Positions 1 through 22,969 of a stretch of 64,000 bases of DNA are shown piece after piece. The notes under the pieces are model-generated. The model was given only the letters and a program-made list of their open reading frames with translations, did no database searches and was not told where the DNA came from. The stretch's first letter is position 1. Each line of letters opens with the position of its first letter. The position numbers and the translations under genes were made by a program. Source of the DNA: Apophysomyces variabilis (lineage: Eukaryota; Mucoromycota; Mucoromycetes; Mucorales; Mucoraceae); assembly GCA_002749535.1 (NCBI GenBank), contig MZZL01000409.1, forward strand, positions 895,282 to 959,281. Reading direction: 5' to 3'.

Positions 1-1570
1 TCGGGCACATAAAAAGCTGCCAATACTGGAAAATTCTGGACGAAGCACTCCACGAACTGATGATATTGCTCTGATGTTGCTGTTTTACAACTCTCTAAAC
101 CGGTCTGAATACGAGTGATACCCGCCGCATCCTTCTTTTTTTCGAGTTACTTCGCTCTCCGCGTAGAACTAGTTATGGCATAATACTCTTTTGTCGACAC
201 ACGGCGTACTTGATGCCTCTGTGAGCCATTACCGTCTGCAGCTGTGTATATTTGATTCAACCCCGGATCCACGGCCCACAGTTCGAACCACTGCTCGACT
301 TCATCAATGGTAAAGTCCTCGAGGTCAATTTCTGTTGCCGGCACCTTTTCCTTTTGTTTTATACGAAAACTAGATTAACTGCAAACCCATCAGAAAGAAT
401 TCTTCCTACGAAACGATGATTTCCATTCCTGGTAAAATCTCCCAAGCTGTACGTATATATTAACAGCGTGAGTGTTTGAAACTAATGGTACCTATCGCTA
501 TTTCCCATACCTATTAAATCCGAAACGAGTAAGATCAAGCGCTTCAAAGAAATACTCGTGGGTATTCGCTCGGCTGTGTTGGTTCTCGAATGGATAACAG
601 ACTTACTAAAAGTAAGGCGTTTATTGAAACAAAACGCCACCTGCAACTTGGCTTTGGTGAAATCGAGAAAAGACGAGACAGAGTTGTATCACTAGAATTT
701 TTTTTTCGGAAGCAGCAACGATCTCATGCTCTTCTTCATAGGAAGACAGGATGTATTTTAACGTTGGAATATACGCGCCAGGCGATGCCGATATGGCTTG
801 TTGCGTTACAGGCTTAGGCGTCAGTGCCTCTAAATCATCACAAATCTTATCGACAATAGCCACTAAAGGCAAATCCGGTTCAATCAAATTAGGCCATTGA
901 GGGGATCCAGCAGCGATGCGTTCGAAGGCATATTCCGATGCAATATTTTGTATCTCAGTTTTATTCATACTCTATATATGATGAAACTTAGTTCAGACAT
1001 ACCAAACGCGATACATACCGGAAACGCTACTGACAGCTTATGTTCAACAAATGAACGCACCCGAGTTTCGAAATTTACGCCTATATTATGTGAATAGCAT
1101 TTGGCCAGCAATATACAAGCTTCTAACTATACATCAGATGATCTCAATTGTGTGCTGAGTGTTTGTTGTATCTGAGGGTACTTGTCACAAAATTCTCTCC
1201 AAGAGCCGCTAAGATCTATTGGCATTTTATCGTTTTTAGTCGTCATTGACTTGTTGGGCACAAGCTGCGTGACCGAATAGAAGAAATTTTGAGTGAAACA
1301 GATGGGTGGAATTACTTGATGATCAAGTATATACTGGTTGACAAACAGTTGAGTTCTTGCAATCACCTCTCTCGTATATTGAGAAAGCTAATGAACTTTT
1401 CTTCGGAACTGATCTCGATGTGCTTCAAGGACAATGGAATGTAGAGGAGCTTTTCGAATGAATGTTTCGAAACCTTTCCCGGGTTTATCTTGTAAGCTCT
1501 CCTCGGTCGACTTGGTGTGTCGCGGGCAACTCTTCGCTCGGGTACTTCTATGTTCGGTGGAACCACATGC
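1..1570 (-). pseudogene. Decayed Fanzor (TnpB-like) gene, copy A, cut by window edge
   Basis: Fanzors are eukaryotic TnpB homologues, RNA-guided RuvC-type DNA nucleases. Reading leftward from about 1570 on the minus strand, conserved blocks of the family appear in order but in different frames. At about 1380-1130 is a helical block with RTQLFVNQYILDH and CFTQNFFYSV. At 968-690 is a block ending in GAYIPTLKYILSSYEE. At about 690-610 is the frameshifted CRWRFVSINAL. At 344-147 is the RuvC-I block, with catalytic-type AVDPG and then STKEYYAI. The reading then continues past a frame change at about 146 (GITRIQTGLES) off the left edge. The same blocks occur in the same order in the copy at 18487-20945. 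Frameshifts near 1366 and 690 and a broken segment at 345-610 mark it as a pseudogene. The RuvC-III and zinc-finger part lies outside the window. Family assignment rests on shared motifs, not on a search. Confidence 0.72.
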
Positions 1571-9310: not shown

Positions 9311-9940
9311 GTACGTTTAATGCATTAATCAATTGTCGTAATCGGCAGACTTCCTGGAACTGCGCTTACTCTTGCGCATTGTACAGTTAAACCTGGTTTC
9401 ATTATTACGCACGATACTTTTCAGTCTAACTGGACCAAAGATTCACATAGTAAAAGGACAAAATTTTTATTCAAAGACACTAAGTGTCCTTTTATAAATG
9501 TCAAACGAAAGCCGACATCACTGGTGCCGTAGTACTGGCTGGTAATTGTGTCGTGCCTGCAAAATTGTAGTGACACAAAGCTTTTGGTCAGATCGGCCTT
9601 GGTCCAAAAACGGCAAACGTCTAGCGCATCGGTCCTTATCACAAAACAGCAACATCTCCAGGAAGACCATGTTCAACGAAATATTACATAATCTCTTGTC
9701 CGTTTATTTTACTTATTTTGAATGCTCGGCCGTCTCGGTATTGTTCCAATTAGTTTAGAAAAAATATAAATATCCGTAGATTTGTTTAGCAATAAAGAGA
9801 ATCATCCATTTATTCTCTATCTCTTTTGTTACCCTTGATTCTCAGTGGGTTTGACCTTTGCCAGGAAGAAAACCCAGATCAGGAAGAAAATACCGCGCAC
9901 GACAGAAAAATAAAAAAAAAATTTGACATTGGCTCAAAAA
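9311..9940. other. Intergenic, no gene recognised
   Basis: Between Fanzor copy B and the tRNA-Cys gene I see no supported gene. A 73-residue minus frame (9642-9421) with WTKADLTKSFVSLQF faintly recalls reverse transcriptases but is too short to claim. The right copy of the direct repeat occupies 9830-9913. Confidence 0.5.
9830..9913 (+). repeat. Direct repeat, right copy
   Basis: Partner of 6898-6960. It shares TACCCTTGAT, TTTGACC/TTTAACC, TTGCCAG and a CGCGC core, with an extra ~20 bases of duplicated AGGAAGAAAA-type sequence. It ends just before the tRNA-Cys terminator. Confidence 0.6.
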
Positions 9941-10011
9941 GGGACCACCGTGGTTTGAACACGGGACCTTGGGATCTGCAATCCCCTGCTCTACCACTGA
10001 GCTATGACCCC
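9941..10011 (-). tRNA. tRNA-Cys (anticodon GCA), intronless
   Basis: The minus strand folds as a standard 71-nt cloverleaf. The acceptor GGGGTCA pairs with TGGTCCC, with two G-U pairs. The D arm is GCTC-AGTGGTA-GAGC. The anticodon arm is GGGGA-TTGCAGA-TCCCA, with anticodon GCA. The T arm is CCGTG-TTCAAAC-CACGG. The discriminator base is U, as expected for cysteine tRNA. GTTCAAAC serves as the B box. Runs of T directly downstream (below 9941 on the minus strand) act as an RNA polymerase III terminator. The only blemish is a G-A mismatch closing the anticodon stem. Confidence 0.93.
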
Positions 10012-11267
10012 CGGCACGCTTGACAGCTTGTGTGATATTTTTTCAGGCCTCACCACCCGAGTAAATGCAACATGGAAAGAATGAAAAGATGGAGCCTTTG
10101 GGAGTAAGAATGGTGGAAAGTTTGTCTTGATCTTCAAGAAGTACACGGCTAGGTACACTACACGTTGGCCTAGGTGCGCGACCTTTGCTCTTGGTTTGGT
10201 GCACACCTGCCTTGTACGTGCACAACTCCTACGGACCTGGTTGGTACACCACAATCAATTATTTGTACACGCACATCCGCTTCGGACGTAAATGGTCATT
10301 TGGTGTAACTTGGAAAACACAACTGAATCCTTCCTCCCATTCTTTCCCAGTGATCGCATGCTTTTCCTAACCCATGTCCTTAGCGTTTACCTCCGTTTTG
10401 TATGGTTTCAATTTTAAGTTAGTTCTAGTGAATTCCCCTCTTTGGTCGAATAGTTTCAGAGGAAATAAAGACACGGGAAAGGACCTCTTTCGAAAAAGAG
10501 GAGGAGGAATTTCCGGAAAAAAAGAACCTTTTGAACCAAAAAGAACCGGAACCGTATTGTACTTGCAAACATCTTTTCTGGGTACAGTGAATTTGGAGTG
10601 TCTTTGAGATTGCTTTTGAGAAAGGATCTAAGGAACTCATCTTTACTGCTAAGATCGTTTGAAGTGACATTGTTTATTTGGTGAACTCCCTTTGTTATCT
10701 TCCTTCATATATTTTATTTTGTTTTCACACTCTTCTACTACCCTTCGTTATATCTTTTCCTTAACCCGACCCTCCCTCAATTGTATTTGTTTGAACAGTT
10801 GATATTTTGTGAATTCATTATTCACACTTGTTGTTGTTGTACTTTTGTGTCTTGTACTATTTTATTTATTTCTATCCCCATCCTTCTTTTGTACTTACTT
10901 GTCACAGTACATAAGCACCGCACGTGTCACGCTCTTTCGCTTTTTCATCACTTTTTTCGACTTCACGAAAGAAGTGTTCCTTTCATCTTTAAAAAAAAGT
11001 GTTCATCCGTCCTTTATTTTTTGATATATTGTTCTCCCCGATTTCCACTTTACTATATCTCAATTTCAGTGCGTGTTAGCTTAAACTTTTCCCTGTTTTT
11101 ACATCAATTTTCTGAACGTTCGAAAAAAATTTTATCAGAAAGAAAAAGGATTTTTTTCTCAAGTTCCCCTCCCCCTCCCTCTTCTTCAATCCCCGCCCTA
11201 AATTTTTCTTCCCAGGTGCACCCCTCCCTTTGATATTCAATCTCAACAGGCGCCTTTTTCAGAAATT
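10012..11267. other. tRNA flank and probable LINE 5' region
   Basis: No gene is recognised. The last ~500 bases are strongly T- and C-rich on the plus strand and lead without break into LINE ORF1, so they probably belong to the LINE 5' untranslated region. The exact left end of the element is not visible. Confidence 0.45.
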
Positions 11268-16417: not shown

Positions 16418-17114
16418 ATGTCAACTCCTACCAGAAGGCGGCTTATGCGTGATTTCAAGAGATTGCAAAGCGATCCACCAGGCAAGGATTCTGATGCAGT
16501 AATTAAAGGAAGATGCTAACTACTGCGGTCATCTATATCGTTTCCATTTCTCCCGATCATACAGGAGGTGTATCAGGTATGTACTACTACTTACGTTTTT
16601 TACGGAGATACTTAATTATTATCTATAGGTGCACCATGTCCAGACAACATTATGCTGTGGAATGCAGTAATCTTTGGACCTGGTAAGTATTTGCTCATAG
16701 CTGGCATGCTGGTGCTATAGCTGATTATATAATTGCATTCATTAGCCGATACCCCTTTCGAAGACGGCACATTCAAGTTGGTCTTGCAATTTGACGAAAC
16801 TTATGTAAGTTGACACTGGGAGGTCAAAGCAAGCTAACCGTTCATGGTAGCCCAATAAACCACCGCAAGTCAAGTTCGTATCCAAAATGTTCCATCCTAA
16901 TGTCTATGCCAATGGCGAATTGTGTCTCGATATTCTTCAAAACCGTTGGAGCCCAACCTACGATGTCGCCGCTATTCTCACCAGTATTCAGTCGTTGTTG
17001 CATGATCCTAACCCCAATTCACCTGCTAATGCGGAAGCTGCAAACTTGTACCGGGAAAACAGAAAGGAATATGTAAGACGTGTGCGTGAGATCGTGGAGT
17101 CATCATGGGAGTAA
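16418..17114 (+). CDS. RAD6: Ubiquitin-conjugating enzyme E2, RAD6/UBC2 type
   Basis: RAD6 is the E2 for PCNA monoubiquitination (with Rad18) and histone H2B monoubiquitination (with Bre1), in the nucleus. Five exons close to a 150-residue protein, the usual length: 16418-16481, 16565-16576, 16629-16682, 16746-16804 and 16851-17114. It starts [19 protein letters not shown], includes [19 protein letters not shown], and has the active-site Cys in [19 protein letters not shown]. It ends [10 protein letters not shown] and lacks the acidic tail of the budding-yeast protein, as in most other eukaryotes. Oddities: exon 2 is only 12 nt (it encodes most of GVSG), and intron 1 uses a GC donor (CCAG|GCAAGG) with a CTAAC branch point and a CAG acceptor. 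A possible polyadenylation signal AATAAA lies about 80 nt past the stop. Confidence 0.97.
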
Positions 17115-18425
17115 CAATGATGGGCGCATCGCAGCTTAGCAAGGAGAAAGAATGGCATTTGATCTACTCATCGTTTTTTAACGTCGGAAAGGAAATAAAA
17201 ATTTTAAAGTTTCAAGTGAATATATGTATACAGGTTTTTGCAAGGTAATTTCCGTCAGTCAAAAGTTACTTTTGCACAAGCGAGTAAATAACTTACATAT
17301 GGAAGCAACACTTCTGTTAGAGTAGCGTAAAATTACCTTCCATAAACAATATGTCTCTAACTACTAACAGCATTCGGGTATCTATTACAATGATTTTCGG
17401 GAACTAGGTGAGATTCGACTGGTAGACTATGGGTGCTATGCAGAACTGCCAGACAATGGCATAATTTATTAAACAACATGTACTCGTGAAGTTGCAGACC
17501 TACTGCGATCATAGCGGAGATCCTTTACGTTGGAGGATCCGTGGTAGGAATAGTAAATGAAGTTTGTTCCTATCCTCCGTTATGCGTGGTTAATCGAGTC
17601 AATTATGGAATATGGTAGTGCAGCATCCGCCAAAGTCCATGTTGCCGGTCATATTGTCTTACAGATCTGTAAAGATATTACATTTACAATACAAGAGCAG
17701 TAGAACATGTCGATAAGACCGCCGTGAGAAATGCAAAATATGTTTAATTGACAGGGAATTGTGTTGCTATTGATAGTTTTCATGTTAGCTGAAGCTCTGA
17801 CTCAAAATAAGAAAGTGGGTTTGCTTCGTTAGTGCACTGAACTTTGGCAACGATGATTGAAAACGATTGGCAGTCAATCGTTAGTTTAAAGGTGAGGTCA
17901 TCTTCATTGTACGTAATGTGTTTAATAGAGAAAGAGGTTCGTATATATAGGCAGCAACTGTCGGAGAGCTGAATGACTTTTTCGAAGCAATTGCTTTTCT
18001 TTTCCAAGGCACACTTGGTCCTTGGTATAGTGTTATGTTCCGTTTGCAAAACATTCCTATCTGACTGTGGATATCAAATGTCTTCTATTCTTCTACCATC
18101 CTGATGAGATATCACTGTAACCGAAATTCACAGTGACACTTAAATGAGCACACAATAAAAGTTAATATGAAACAACTAAAGAGTTCCTAGGCTCTGGATA
18201 ATTGAGTCGATATGATCTGCTGTTTGTGAGAGATGACAAAGTTGGGATGCTTGCTGGTGGCGTTGCTCGTCGTCCCTACTGGTTTATTCAAAAGTTTTTG
18301 AAGATTTCATCCAAAATTGTTTGAAGATTTGGTGATAAAACTTATAAAGAATTTACCAACAACTGTTGGTGAGTATCCTCTGTTAAAATGTGATAAAAGG
18401 CTTATCGATTTGAACATCTAGAGAA
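17115..18425. other. Intergenic, no gene recognised
   Basis: About 1.3 kb. An 89-codon minus frame (18049-17780) containing DDLTFKLTIDCQSFSIIV has protein-like composition, but I find no family and no supporting splice signals. The remainder looks non-coding. Confidence 0.4.
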
Positions 18426-18478
18426 GGTAAGTATTAGCAAAATAATACTAACGGGCAACATTGCCTAATACACTTACC
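18426..18478 (-). other. Hairpin just downstream of Fanzor copy C
   Basis: On the minus strand, outer arms GGTAAGTGTATTAGGCA and TGCTAATACTTACC pair with small bulges. Inside, GGCAA-TG-TTGCC forms a second possible stem. It begins 9 bases past the terminal stop of the Fanzor frame (stop at 18489-18487). In TnpB/Fanzor elements the guide RNA scaffold lies at this 3' end. Any role here is inference. Confidence 0.4.
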
Positions 18479-18486
18479 GTAACAAT

Positions 18487-20945
18487 CTAAATCCCAGTTG
18501 GGGAACCCGCGTTCGCAGCAATGATATTGGTTCGAGTTTCGTCTGGCACGGGTCGACTGAATACAGCGGGTCGGTTTCCAGTAGACTACACTGATACGGC
18601 GATTTCAAAAAGATTTTTGGCGGCATTAACATCTGGATTCCGCAGGGTACTGCAGGTTTTACAGTCCAGGACACTGATGAGTAACGCCATCCAAAGTCTT
18701 GAATTTCGTCAAAGTTCTGCTATGGCACGAGTTGCTTATCTCGGTATGACTACATGAGATAAAAACAACTGCATATAGTATGACTAGATTATTTACCAGA
18801 GACGATAGGTACTCGTCTATGGTTACAACAGGGACTTGGTAATTTTTTTCTTTTCGTTTAAGGCTCTTTCAAAGCTGGCCCACAACTCCTGGCGGATGTC
18901 CTTTATACTTCATTTGACGTTTGCCAAACATTACGCTGCCGAAGACAACAAGAGGCATCTTGCCATTAATATCAACCTTTACTTTTGTTTTCTTCCAACG
19001 AGGGAGTCTTCGATTGCTGGTTGTCGACCTAACAGCGGATTCTGGGATCCTACTAAGACTGTAACAAACATATCGCTCGTTAAAAACCTAGACATAGAGA
19101 GATAAAATATTTTACTTACACTTCTACACCTTGAGTAGCATTGCTCGCTTCATCCTGGCGTTCCCTTGCTCTCTTTTCTTTTTCTCTCTCGCGATTTCTT
19201 GATTTTTTTTTGTTTCTCTTGGTTTCTTTGCTCTTTCTGCGATTGTACTTCTTTCCACCGTGCACCATAATATTGGCTATTTCCTCTCGCTCCCGTTGTC
19301 TGCCTTGGTAGTTGTGGAAACGAGAATGACCGCGGCCAGAGTGATAGAACCTAAAATCGCATCTCGATGCGTAAAAAAGTAATTCACGTATTTGGCATAT
19401 TGGTCATTTTCAGTTGACTTGCCGGTGGGAAACTTTCGCTCGATATATTTGATGCCGGCTGCCTGTTTATCTTTGTATAAGGCATTGTTCCTACGACCTG
19501 ACCCAGTGACAGAATAATATTCCGCAGTGGAACGTTTTCTAATTTCATGCTGGTCCGCGCCATGACTGTAAGAGGCAGTTAATAGGTGTCCACTGCCTGG
19601 ATCCACCGCAACAGGTCGGTAGAATTGGCCAACTTCGTCAGTGTTCAAATCTTGGAGCCTGATTTGTTCTTCTGAATGGCTTTGGGTGCTTTTCGCCCGG
19701 GAGAAACTGGAAATGAACCGAACCCGTCTGTCATTATTTAATTACGAAATAGTCGCTGATTGTCACTGCTGTGCTAAATGTTAGTTTGGGGCCATAGTCA
19801 ACTGCGTAATAGTATGTTCTACCTTCCGTAACCATACTTCTCCAGATCGAAGCACTGGTTAAACAAATTGAAGTTTGCTTCATACTTATCAGTTGATTCA
19901 TGGTTGTTGCTGGGTCCACGAGCTGACGAAAGTATCTGCAGTACATTACCGTTAATTGTTATAAATCTCCAGCCGAACGAGGGAAGGGGACCAGAGAAAA
20001 CAGCCTTGGCGGTGTGATGCTTTATTGGTCATCATCTTGAATTCCGGCTAAACCTATGAGAGTTGAAGCTGCCTCGGATTCTCGATGCGCCAAAGTGAAG
20101 CTTTGTAGTATGAAACGGAGCACAGGAATATATGAACCAGGCAAAGCAGACAGATAGGCGGGACGACAAGGACCGTGTATGTGATGACTGAGCTCATCCA
20201 ACACTGTCTTCGCAGCATTCACTGCACGAATATATACTATGCTTACTGATGCTGTCGGCCAGTGTGGCTCACCATGAACGATGACTTCAGCTACGTAATC
20301 CGAACAGATTGCTTTCATTTGAGCTTTGGTAAGCTCCTATGTAGGGCATAAGGTTTACTGCAACACATTTATACAAATCATACTGGAAGAAGCTGCCGAA
20401 TCGATGTATTCAATAAGCAACAATGCGGTTATTGAAGTTGTCGACCGTATGGTTCGTGTAAGCGGTCTGCAACGTGGTGCATGCCGCTGCAAGAGCGTCA
20501 CTGTATCCGACAAATCCTCGTAGAGGATAAACTATTTCTGGATGGTGTTGGCTGAATGTGTCCCCAATCCATACCACGCTTGCAGGGAATTTTGTGTTCT
20601 TGTTCTGGACCGCTTTCCCAACTACTAACTGGCAGACAATGTACCAGAAATTTTGCGCGAATATGTAAACCCAAATCTCTGTTTCAGCGTTGTTAATGAC
20701 GTATCCGTTTACGAAGATCTGCGCTCGGCAAACGACTTCTCGAACGAAGCTACATAGCTCAATAATCTTGCGGTGCAACTGGTTACGGTGTTCGGCGCGA
20801 ACAACTGAATCAAATGGGCCACCCTTGTGTACGTTTCGCTACCAGAAGCGAAGGTTTCTCGAACCTTTTCTTTGATAGTCGTAACATGATCCTCTCATTG
20901 AACCGATCTTGCTGTTGCGTGTCCCTTCTGCCCACAAGAACTACA
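18487..20945 (-). pseudogene. Decayed Fanzor (TnpB-like) gene, copy C, near full length
   Basis: This is the most complete of three copies. From the N-terminus it shows a zinc-knuckle-like CSSCGQKGH (20945-20919), helical blocks REVVCRAQIFVNGYVIN and AQNFWYIVCQLVVG (20778-20410), and GSYIPVLRFILQSF (about 20150-20090). The RuvC-I block with VAVDPG and STAEYYSVTG follows (19648-19500), then AAGIKYIERKFPTGKS, NIMVHGGKKYN plus a Lys/Arg/Glu-rich stretch (about 19280-19140), and MPLVVFGSVMFGK and KGHPPGVVGQL (about 18970-18880). VVTIDEYLSS (RuvC-II position) is at 18824-18795. Last come VLDCKTCSTLRNPDVNAAKN, the zinc finger and canonical RuvC-III Asp motif (18660-18600), and the tail GNRPAVFSRP. 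Frameshifts near 20320-20400 and 19330, an in-frame TGA after GQL, and TAG for an expected Trp make it non-functional. Confidence 0.82.
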
Positions 20946-22969
20946 CACCGCTAAAGAAGTCGATGGATTTTTGTTTGCCCGATCGTGCTCGACTCTTCCA
21001 CGCTTCTTTTGTCTCTTTGTCTCAATGGTGTCTTTAATGGCTTTTCTCTTCCCTGTTAGAAATTATGCGATTAGGGCTTTGATAGTGGTCAATCTGCTAC
21101 GTTTGTACCATATGCCTTTGACAAGGATCATTCGCAACTTCTCTTTGTCTTATGCCCAAAAGCCCAGTAATCTCGACATGTGGCTGTGGATATGCCATGT
21201 AAGATCAATGAATCTCATATATCAGCAACATACCTTGTTGTTCTTCGGCTTCCTCTGCCTCTCGCTGAGATTTTCGTATTGCCTTTTTAGTAAGCGTATA
21301 TAAAATAGGAGTATAAACGTGCAAACCAAGCGAAACTGAAATTGCTGACAAGAAAAGTAATGAATCCATTAGTAAGAGAGGGTAAGAAAAATGGAAGAAA
21401 GAGCTGCATAAGGGGGAAAATAGAGAGGCATCTAAGTTTTGAGAACTCTTGGAATCTGATGACGAGTCACTTCAATCACTGTTCAATTGACAACATCTTC
21501 ATAAACATATAATTTAAGTCGTTGGAGAAAACGCTTAAACACCGTTTCTTCGAATAACATATGAGTACCAAATCTATGTATTATTTTTAACTTATAATGT
21601 ATTATTTCGTTTAGCAGCTTAAGCATGATTATGAGTACGGGCTTTCATTCTAGGTTGAACTTAATCTTTGCCTGAAACATAATGACGATATATACGAAAC
21701 TGATCAATCCCAGTTACTGCAAAATACATAGATTTCCTAATGCACATTATTTTTGATCTTTGGCAATGTAAAAGAAGCAAGGAAGAAAACAGTTGCAGAA
21801 TGCTGGATAGCCTGGGAGAATCTCATCACAAAACTTGGTTGGACTCCAGGCCCACGGCTCCTTAAATGTAGACATCTACTCATTTCTATTTCTCCTCAAG
21901 TCTCTCTTTGATATGACAGGCTGCTTTGAGAGCTTCCGCAAAAGGATATATTACGGTTGACTGGGACATGGGGCACTTTATGACCAACTTTTACATACAA
22001 TTCTTTTTTGGGCCCGGTACGTTCATTCCCTTGTTTGCATCACAAATAATATTGAGACCTTCTTTGATAAACGAGCTGGATCCCATTTCAAGGATCCAAT
22101 GGAATGATATATTTTGACTCAAAATCTTCCATTTTTCTAATTGTCTTCCTCTTCCTCCTTTTATCAAATTATGGGCACGGTCAGCGTTCCTATATATGAA
22201 ATGACTCCTCAAATTCGTTCACCATACGGCGCAGTTATGAGCGACATCTTACGTAATTGAGGAAGCTAATATGGTAGCATAATTAATAGCTTCGTAATTA
22301 TCTAGCTTGTGAGGTAATCCGCAGGACATTGAGAGCGAGAATCAGCACTTTGAGAATCATGGCTTCTTTTACGCAGCATGTAATCCTCCTCCTATGTGTT
22401 AATACTCAGTAATTCAAGCTATTTATATTGAAAATTACTGACTTTGTTTTGTTATTGTAAACAATATGTTTGATAAGGTTCAACCTTTACTTATTGTCTT
22501 TCTATATATCATACAGGTACCTGGCGTTTTGCATGACACAAACAAAATCGGCTACACTATTTTTGCTGAGATTTACCCGTATCCTCAATAGCTTTAACAA
22601 TTGGGTCGTTTATAGTTACCGTCTAGTTAGTAGGATGATCATCTATGACTTTGGGATGTAGTTGCACTTGCCTCTGAACGAGAACACGCTTTTAATTAAC
22701 GTTTAATTGAAAATCTCTTAATTGCGAATTTCCAGAGTTTGATTAGATGATTCTTCAAAAATTGACTCTCCGAAACTACAAGTGGCTTAAAATACAAAAT
22801 AGTCACGAAGCAGCCAATCAGCGACGCCTAAAATTTTGTTTTTGGGAGGAAAATGGGCATCCAAAGCGAGTTGTTTGCGAGTCCTCCTCTTTCGTGTCTT
22901 AATCTCGACTTGGTAACGTTTGTACTTATTCAAGAAGACCGCGATTACTTATCATCGATTAAGTTAGCA
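20946..22969. other. Intergenic; right end is the eL30 promoter
   Basis: No gene recognised in about 2 kb. Frames on either strand look random. A CCAAT box (AGCCAATCAGCG, 22812-22823) about 150 bp before the eL30 start is a plausible promoter element. Confidence 0.45.

Follow-up and report, generated by a model that had tools for sequence, protein, structure and literature searches.

Introduction

Fanzor1 genes within Tc1/mariner transposons have been described for PGv-1, PUl-1 and PUl-4, elements that occur with or without a mariner transposase, have terminal inverted repeats (TIRs) and are flanked by TA duplications; the transposase-less forms share their ends with mariners (Bao and Jurka 2013, PMC3627910). 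The Fanzor elements of Mucor, Rhizopus and Phycomyces described there are MuDR-like or unclassified. The hosts of the three named elements are viruses, Hydra and, going by the prefix PUl, an oomycete. In Chlamydomonas, the Fanzor1 elements CRe-1/2/3 include 5'-truncated copies with direct repeats of ~7-19 bp beside a fixed TTTT or T-rich motif (PMC3627910). In SpuFz1, a fungal Fanzor1 of Spizellomyces punctatus, the left repeat is preceded by a conserved CA, an RNA is made from the right end, and Fanzor-less "ghost" copies occur (PMC10432273). SfAV Fanzor1 lies in a TIR element with a target site duplication (TSD) (PMC10711439, PMC3627910), and this TSD forms part of the reRNA scaffold (PMC10711439). 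In bacteria, TnpB is an RNA-guided nuclease thought to aid transposon persistence by cutting (PMC10278001, PMC11870625).

The window analyzed here is a stretch of 64,000 nucleotides from Apophysomyces variabilis, in which an earlier note had described a near-full-length Fanzor relic. The literature search returned nothing on Fanzor together with Mucoromycota.

The element in the window and its relatives share with PGv-1, PUl-1 and PUl-4 (PMC3627910) a Fanzor1 that occurs either alone or next to a mariner transposase, the TIRs, the TA duplications, and transposase-less forms with mariner ends. Unlike them, they reside in a mucoralean host, and their long form on contig C94 has an extra internal end between transposase and Fanzor. 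Like SpuFz1, they have a conserved dinucleotide ahead of the left repeat, ghost copies and, by our inference, an RNA from the right end. In contrast to SpuFz1, their protein carries a CCHC-like knuckle, the left bases are (A/G)C before TA instead of CA, and the size is 4.4-7 kb with four likely coding introns, compared with a locus of ~2.1 kb with one ORF (PMC10432273). SfAV Fanzor1 differs in its 4-bp TTAN TSD, viral setting and compact protein (PMC10711439, PMC3627910).

Results

A dead Fanzor1 gene in a mariner-type transposon

The element in the window is a transposon with mariner-type ends that carries a dead, intron-containing Fanzor1 gene. When relatives encoded elsewhere in this genome (38.7 Mb, 126 contigs) supplied exon proteins as tblastn queries, a co-linear but broken gene was recovered in pieces between 21053 and 18526 on the minus strand. 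The pieces were 39-66% identical across the matched stretches, with E-values from the N- to the C-terminal piece of 1.1e-58, 3.3e-33, 4.9e-40, 2.2e-37 and 6e-10, a series far beyond chance. The features are as follows.

18279..22799, minus strand: whole element, ~4.5 kb, from five sister alignments; left limit tentative (end degenerate)
21054..22781, minus strand: 5' region, from sister alignment
20401..21053, minus strand: N-terminal exon with CCHC-like knuckle; tblastn 1.1e-58; frame change near 20820
from 20945, minus strand: Cys/His knuckle, CCHC-like
20337..20383, minus strand: likely intron 1; GT...AG letters and frames
19823..20333, minus strand: REC-type helical exon; tblastn 3.3e-33; frame change near 19989
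19774..19822, minus strand: likely intron 2; GT...AG, homologue P0001 lacks an equivalent stretch
19723..19731, minus strand: TDG motif of the Fanzor1 wedge domain, from motif search
19122..19705, minus strand: RuvC-I exon with AVDPG (19606-19590); 4.9e-40 and 3.5e-27; frame change near 19355
19059..19119, minus strand: likely intron 3; GT...AG letters and frames
18797..19058, minus strand: RuvC-II exon with IDEY (18820-18809); 66% identical, 2.2e-37, match 19063-18791
18750..18796, minus strand: likely intron 4; GT...AG letters and frames
18526..18672, minus strand: second zinc-finger CxxC and RuvC-III; tblastn 6e-10; CKTC 18663-18652, DVNAAKN 18633-18619
18418..18477, minus strand: GT...AG intron-like stretch 3' of the stop codon; donor GT-A-A-G absent from L040-L044 (by eye)
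18279..18491, minus strand: conserved right end, 3' UTR and candidate fRNA scaffold; at least 39 other places, 75-91% DNA identity
18279..18329, minus strand: right TIR; 83-91% identical to the left ends of L040-L043, inverse orientation
18277..18278, minus strand: TA at the right end, from sequence read

The earlier note had placed a knuckle, AVDPG, IDEY, CKTC and DVNAAKN in this order on the minus strand, and all five were located as claimed; the near-full-length character of the relic was likewise borne out by the piecewise match. The element as a whole is larger than the note's span of 18487..20945, about 22799-18279. The note had also mentioned a few frameshifts. Five breaks have the look of GT...AG introns; four of them interrupt the coding sequence and one lies past the stop codon. 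A spliced homologue, P0001, supports intron 2, and the other four are suggested by splice-site letters and frames. Besides the introns, the tblastn pieces contain true lesions, with five in-frame stops and a minimum of four frame changes. The CKTC of the zinc finger is in place, but the first zinc-finger Cys is changed to Ser (by eye). The coding function of the window copy is lost.

Five sisters (L040-L043 and L045) aligned with the window at 85.4-88.4% over ~4.5 kb, from ~22781 to 18277-18306. A sixth, the C101 copy (L044/L048), aligned at 85.5-90.9%, in parts due to an N gap, and L046/L047 is a more distant copy (78-82% in pieces). Alignment of the ends gave a clean right border, exact at CCAG|TA (18282-18277), and a decayed left one, where the repeat of the window copy is gone; on this side the element probably ends at GACTA (22804-22800). 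At the right tip, the copies differ in the number of ~25-29-bp near-repeats (by eye, including window 18277-18330).

Per codon position, the window copy differs by ~6-9% from five sisters and by ~10% from the sixth; substitutions are nearly even over positions 1, 2 and 3 (0.079-0.101, 0.059-0.096 and 0.081-0.105). Divergence of the 5' region, measured for five sisters, is above that of the coding part (0.130-0.146). The lower value at position 2 and the higher 5' divergence leave room for some earlier constraint. Among seven aligned copies, 35 frame-changing indels are private and 5 are common to two copies. The window copy has 7 of the private ones and takes part in 3 of the shared ones, whereas L040 has no private indel. 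The simplest reading would be that the copies decayed separately after insertion. That the element died recently enough to stay readable, as had been suggested, is reasonable for a copy 6-10% from its sisters with mostly private lesions, where the age is a relative one only. CpG- or RIP-like decay was not seen in the seven-copy alignment (CpG 0.060 vs. 0.062 for other C/G).

At its start, the window also cuts through another Fanzor copy that is less closely related, of which a piece is included (33..308, minus strand). It is 39% identical to the RuvC-I piece (1.6e-15) and has one stop; a zinc-finger match lies near it, just outside the window (C95:894603-894812). An ORF at 16887-17114 (plus strand) presumably corresponds to the C-terminal portion of a ubiquitin-conjugating enzyme of the Rad6/Ubc2 type.

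Shared ends and transposase-bearing long forms

TIRs of ~50 bp were found at both ends of L040-L043, and of the 32 copies in which both ends could be placed, 31 are flanked by TA on either side; for the window copy, the right TA alone is clean. A right-end pattern, which also catches left ends, occurred 73 times with up to 3 mismatches, compared with 0 for the reversed pattern. The same ends bound a unit of 1,625 bp on C86 with a single uninterrupted frame of 466 amino acids, and this protein matched DDE_3 (75.7 bits) and HTH_Tnp_1 (32.8 bits). No transposase was found in the window element, and none was recognized in three 5' ORFs of a 4.4-kb relative, which lie in its region equivalent to 21054..22781.

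At least 11 transposase copies are ≥84% identical, with 91 of 618 candidates scored. Seven of the 11 (C86, C94, C95, C43, C89, C35 and C59) lie upstream of a Fanzor piece and the common right end in the same orientation; the transposases of C35 and C59 contain stops. Some copies of ~7 kb thus bear transposase and Fanzor together. The long form on C94 (~7.07 kb) combines an intact transposase frame, the internal transposon end and a Fanzor of five open exon-like frames (230, 174, 249, 95 and 82 residues; putative exons), and is an example of the intact-looking relatives found elsewhere in the genome. Over its first ~155 bp, the L040 element is 78.8% like the left end of the transposase unit, so the 4.5-kb elements look like descendants of transposase-bearing forms that lost the transposase; the reverse order is possible.

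The uninterrupted transposases at C86, C95 376 kb, C94 1887 kb and C89 640 kb scored from 1057.6 to 1050.7 bits, and a spread within 7 bits suggests recent movement. At C41:91.7-92.1 kb, a long form's internal end and a Fanzor-type left end abut in opposite orientations, and this locus looks rearranged or chimeric. L049 (C94:170.6-172.9 kb) is an internal deletion in which the left ~2.1 kb are fused to the last ~85-110 bp, and C99:28.7-30.1 kb is a ~1.3-kb ghost with both ends and no space for a Fanzor gene. Both carry a target stub at the left end.

A one-sided motif at left junctions

Left junctions were placed with strings that had been selected by eye within the first bases of the inverted repeat. 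Among 44 placed junctions, 41 read TA, 38 CTA and 35 (A/G)CTA; C at -3 given TA (38/41) has a binomial p of 4e-23 against 0.205. Of 50 right ends, 48 read TA, 7 TAG and 2 TAG(C/T). The right side therefore has no mirror of (A/G)CTA, the preference is one-sided, and (A/G)CTA is a candidate TAM.

The 44 take in two Fanzor-less derivatives (L049 and C99), five left ends that belong to long forms, and L077, which is flanked like the internal end of a long form. The right end was unreadable in L096 and L141. Fifteen left stretches outside the set were too decayed or truncated to place, or were not left ends (the window copy, L045, L046, L048, L066, L072, L102, L103, L105, L106, L107, L112, L125, L131 and L136). 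The set also excludes the transposase-only or fragment ends L123 and L145-L148, as well as L149 (C113), L150 (C62), L151 (a right end), L153 and L154. Two of these are later left fragments, C62 with ATTA (Fanzor-type by BLAST) and C113 with GGCA (Fanzor-type by eye); with them included, (A/G)CTA stands at 35 of 46.

Target stubs and their origin

In 4 of the 32 pairs of ends, the left tip is replaced by an 8-13-bp copy of the right flank. Including TA, these stubs measure 13 bp (L049), 12 bp (C95 970 kb), 8 bp (C99) and 12 bp (C95 377 kb), compared with a best of 6 among 1568 mismatched pairings. Stubs are absent from the remaining 28 pairs, and the window copy is too decayed at its left end for a call. 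In a looser earlier test, which accepted a match anywhere in the left stretch of 19 pairs, the 779 controls reached 9 (a chance 9 was obtained for C83), which makes the 8-bp stub of C99 the weakest case. The element resumes within a T run in three of the four stubs and a few bases further in at C99. The transposase at C95 377 kb has 100% identity and the same score as that of C86; the stub event there may therefore be young.

We propose that the live element would have been moved in trans by a Tc1/mariner-type DDE transposase, as the shared ends suggest. Fanzor would have bound an RNA from the right end, with the flanking DNA just past the right TA as guide, and, once excision had restored the site with its TAM and a flank matching the guide, would have cut this unoccupied site beside the left (A/G)CTA. 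Repair from another copy would then have returned the element to the cut site, and the four stub copies would be imperfect products of this repair. A stub-type left junction is what is expected when an empty site is cut beyond a left TAM and the element is copied back, with 6-11 nt of target proposed to be kept at the junction, mostly through microhomology at the T run. The explanation as a whole, that is, a dead Fanzor1 element of mariner type, movement in trans and retention by guided cutting and repair, appears probable to us. The narrower claim that the stubs are genomic traces of a eukaryotic Fanzor acting in RNA-guided retention, and that the 7-19-bp repeats of Chlamydomonas have the same origin, is a tentative one that may well fail. 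CRe-1/2/3 resemble the stub copies in the duplication of flank beside a fixed motif, but they differ from the window family in their Helitron context and greater copy number, and their authors invoke one-ended transposition (PMC3627910). Retention by TnpB is bacterial (PMC10278001, PMC11870625), whereas the eukaryotic step proposed here is drawn from junctions alone. Among the papers listed by a literature search that combined Fanzor with homing, microhomology or target site duplication, PMC12633428 included, no proposal of such junction footprints was found.

The main rival for the stubs keeps the identity of the element and attributes both the stubs and the (A/G)C to the transposase by itself, through asymmetric target choice, imprecise cleavage of the left end and end joining at the T run, with Fanzor uninvolved. 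Three of the four stubs join at the T run and the fourth nearby, as in end joining, and the majority of ends (28/32) are clean; moreover, the part given to Fanzor in this family is read from sequence. This account explains less well why the (A/G)CTA motif is one-sided and why all four stubs lie on the left, the side covered by the stub test, where the broken end on the TAM side is expected. The transposase copies speak to both sides. Complete transposase-only copies with both ends present read GTTA (C93) and ATTA (C79), as does C84 (ATTA), in which the right end is missing; C81 and C77 read ACTA, C81 having a flank of the long-form or composite type and C77 being a fragment. A Fisher test that used C93, C79 and C84 only gave p 0.0015, which, being post hoc and with C81 and C77 omitted, is a hint. 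Overall, we regard an origin of stubs and motif from the transposase alone as a serious but doubtful alternative to guided retention.

The right end as a candidate source of guide RNA

The last ~215 bp of the element are 75-91% identical at at least 39 other places (best 40 candidates scored). This end is conserved even in copies that are 42-44% identical in the RuvC-I piece; L022, for instance, has 44% there vs. 78% in right-end DNA. Conservation of right-end DNA above that of the protein fits an RNA from the right end as in SpuFz1, and the guide would then be the DNA beyond the right TA. The right end could instead be a region for transposase binding or processing together with the 3' UTR, and no guide-RNA gene. 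The first ~290 bp of the left end are at least as conserved, so conservation of the right end need not imply a guide RNA. In 20 of 22 right-end sequences (L051 and L035 excluded), the RNAalifold consensus fold was not clearly above column shuffles (z -0.6 to -1.9), and a 5-bp hairpin kept its two inner pairs in 14 and 15 of the 20 with no two-sided changes; neither covariation nor folding thus supports a guide RNA, in keeping with this alternative. Against it, the right-end repeat is the source of the SpuFz1 RNA, and in GtFz1 the RNA and the end of the gene overlap (PMC10432273). A right end that serves the transposase only seems rather unlikely to us, and a right-end guide RNA is retained in the proposed mechanism. 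At gathering scores, Rfam matched one tRNA in the whole window and nothing else; this is a tRNA-Cys(GCA) gene at 9939-10012 (minus strand).

Assignment of the gene to Fanzor1

A frameshift-aware translated search left the Fanzor placement standing and indicated no other family. When a profile of the relatives (alignment A2) was compared with solved structures, the top match was the Spizellomyces Fanzor SpuFz1 (8gkh, E 0.0015). The second-ranked of the 45 matches listed was an unrelated binder (E 0.076), and SpuFz1 alone fell below 0.05. The sequence of one relative by itself gave no match to a solved structure at E ≤10. Genome-wide, PF07282 had at least 73 matches, a lower bound since 150 of the 164 candidates were scored. 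Its curated cut-off is exceeded by three sister copies, those on C17, C101 and C116, and L040 exceeded it in a further search as well; the C64 sister falls short, and pieces of L022 and C94 scored 21.8 and 22.2 against a cut-off of 26.3. In a Pfam search of six window pieces, the sole match was a weak one to TNB (12.5 bits), and NCBIfam gave weak TnpB matches under the cut-offs for the C-terminal exon of one relative. Of four database matches to a Fanzor of this genome, three are named, two being from Apophysomyces and one from Rhizomucor. AlphaFold gave a poor model (mean pLDDT 43.7) for the 380-aa ORF of one relative.

The DPG, TDG and zinc-finger/RuvC-III motifs agree with this assignment. 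The DPG of RuvC-I, present in the window as AVDPG, occurs in 10 of the 11 A2 rows covering the motif; the row without it is P0002, and P0004, which is outside A2, reads NPG. The TDG motif of the Fanzor1 wedge domain has been described (PMC10711439) and is present in the window at 19731-19723. Of eight A2 rows covering this position, five read TDG, two SDG and one TDT, and the C94 long form reads TDD. An alternative RuvC-II Glu six residues ahead of the first CxxC was seen in P0004 and, counted across a likely intron, at the same spacing in C116b and C94. The window retains this Glu, but Ser stands in place of the first Cys (by eye). The full published RuvC-II/CxxC spacing pattern is unmatched in C94, where the stretch between the two CxxC is longer. 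A C4 zinc finger followed by the RuvC-III Asp is given by PF07282 in the three sisters and by the 6e-10 tblastn piece in the window.

By these sequence criteria the window gene belongs to Fanzor1, and the live element may have been RNA-guided, as the earlier note supposed. A decayed host gene, or a RuvC/zinc-finger family other than Fanzor, would suit the weak Pfam scores of the window pieces taken by themselves, but is highly improbable and was rejected in view of the PF07282 matches, with three sisters above the cut-off, the profile match to SpuFz1, the co-linear tblastn series, and the transposon ends and multiple copies.

Discussion

Taken by itself, the copy in the window is an unremarkable dead representative of a known type. 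The wider family is of more interest, since its junctions carry a testable signature of the service that Fanzor may render to its transposon. This genome offers many copies with readable ends, a candidate TAM, junctions of the type that retention predicts, and intact-looking relatives in which transposase and Fanzor occur together. With these resources, the question of what Fanzor does for its transposon becomes testable in one organism.
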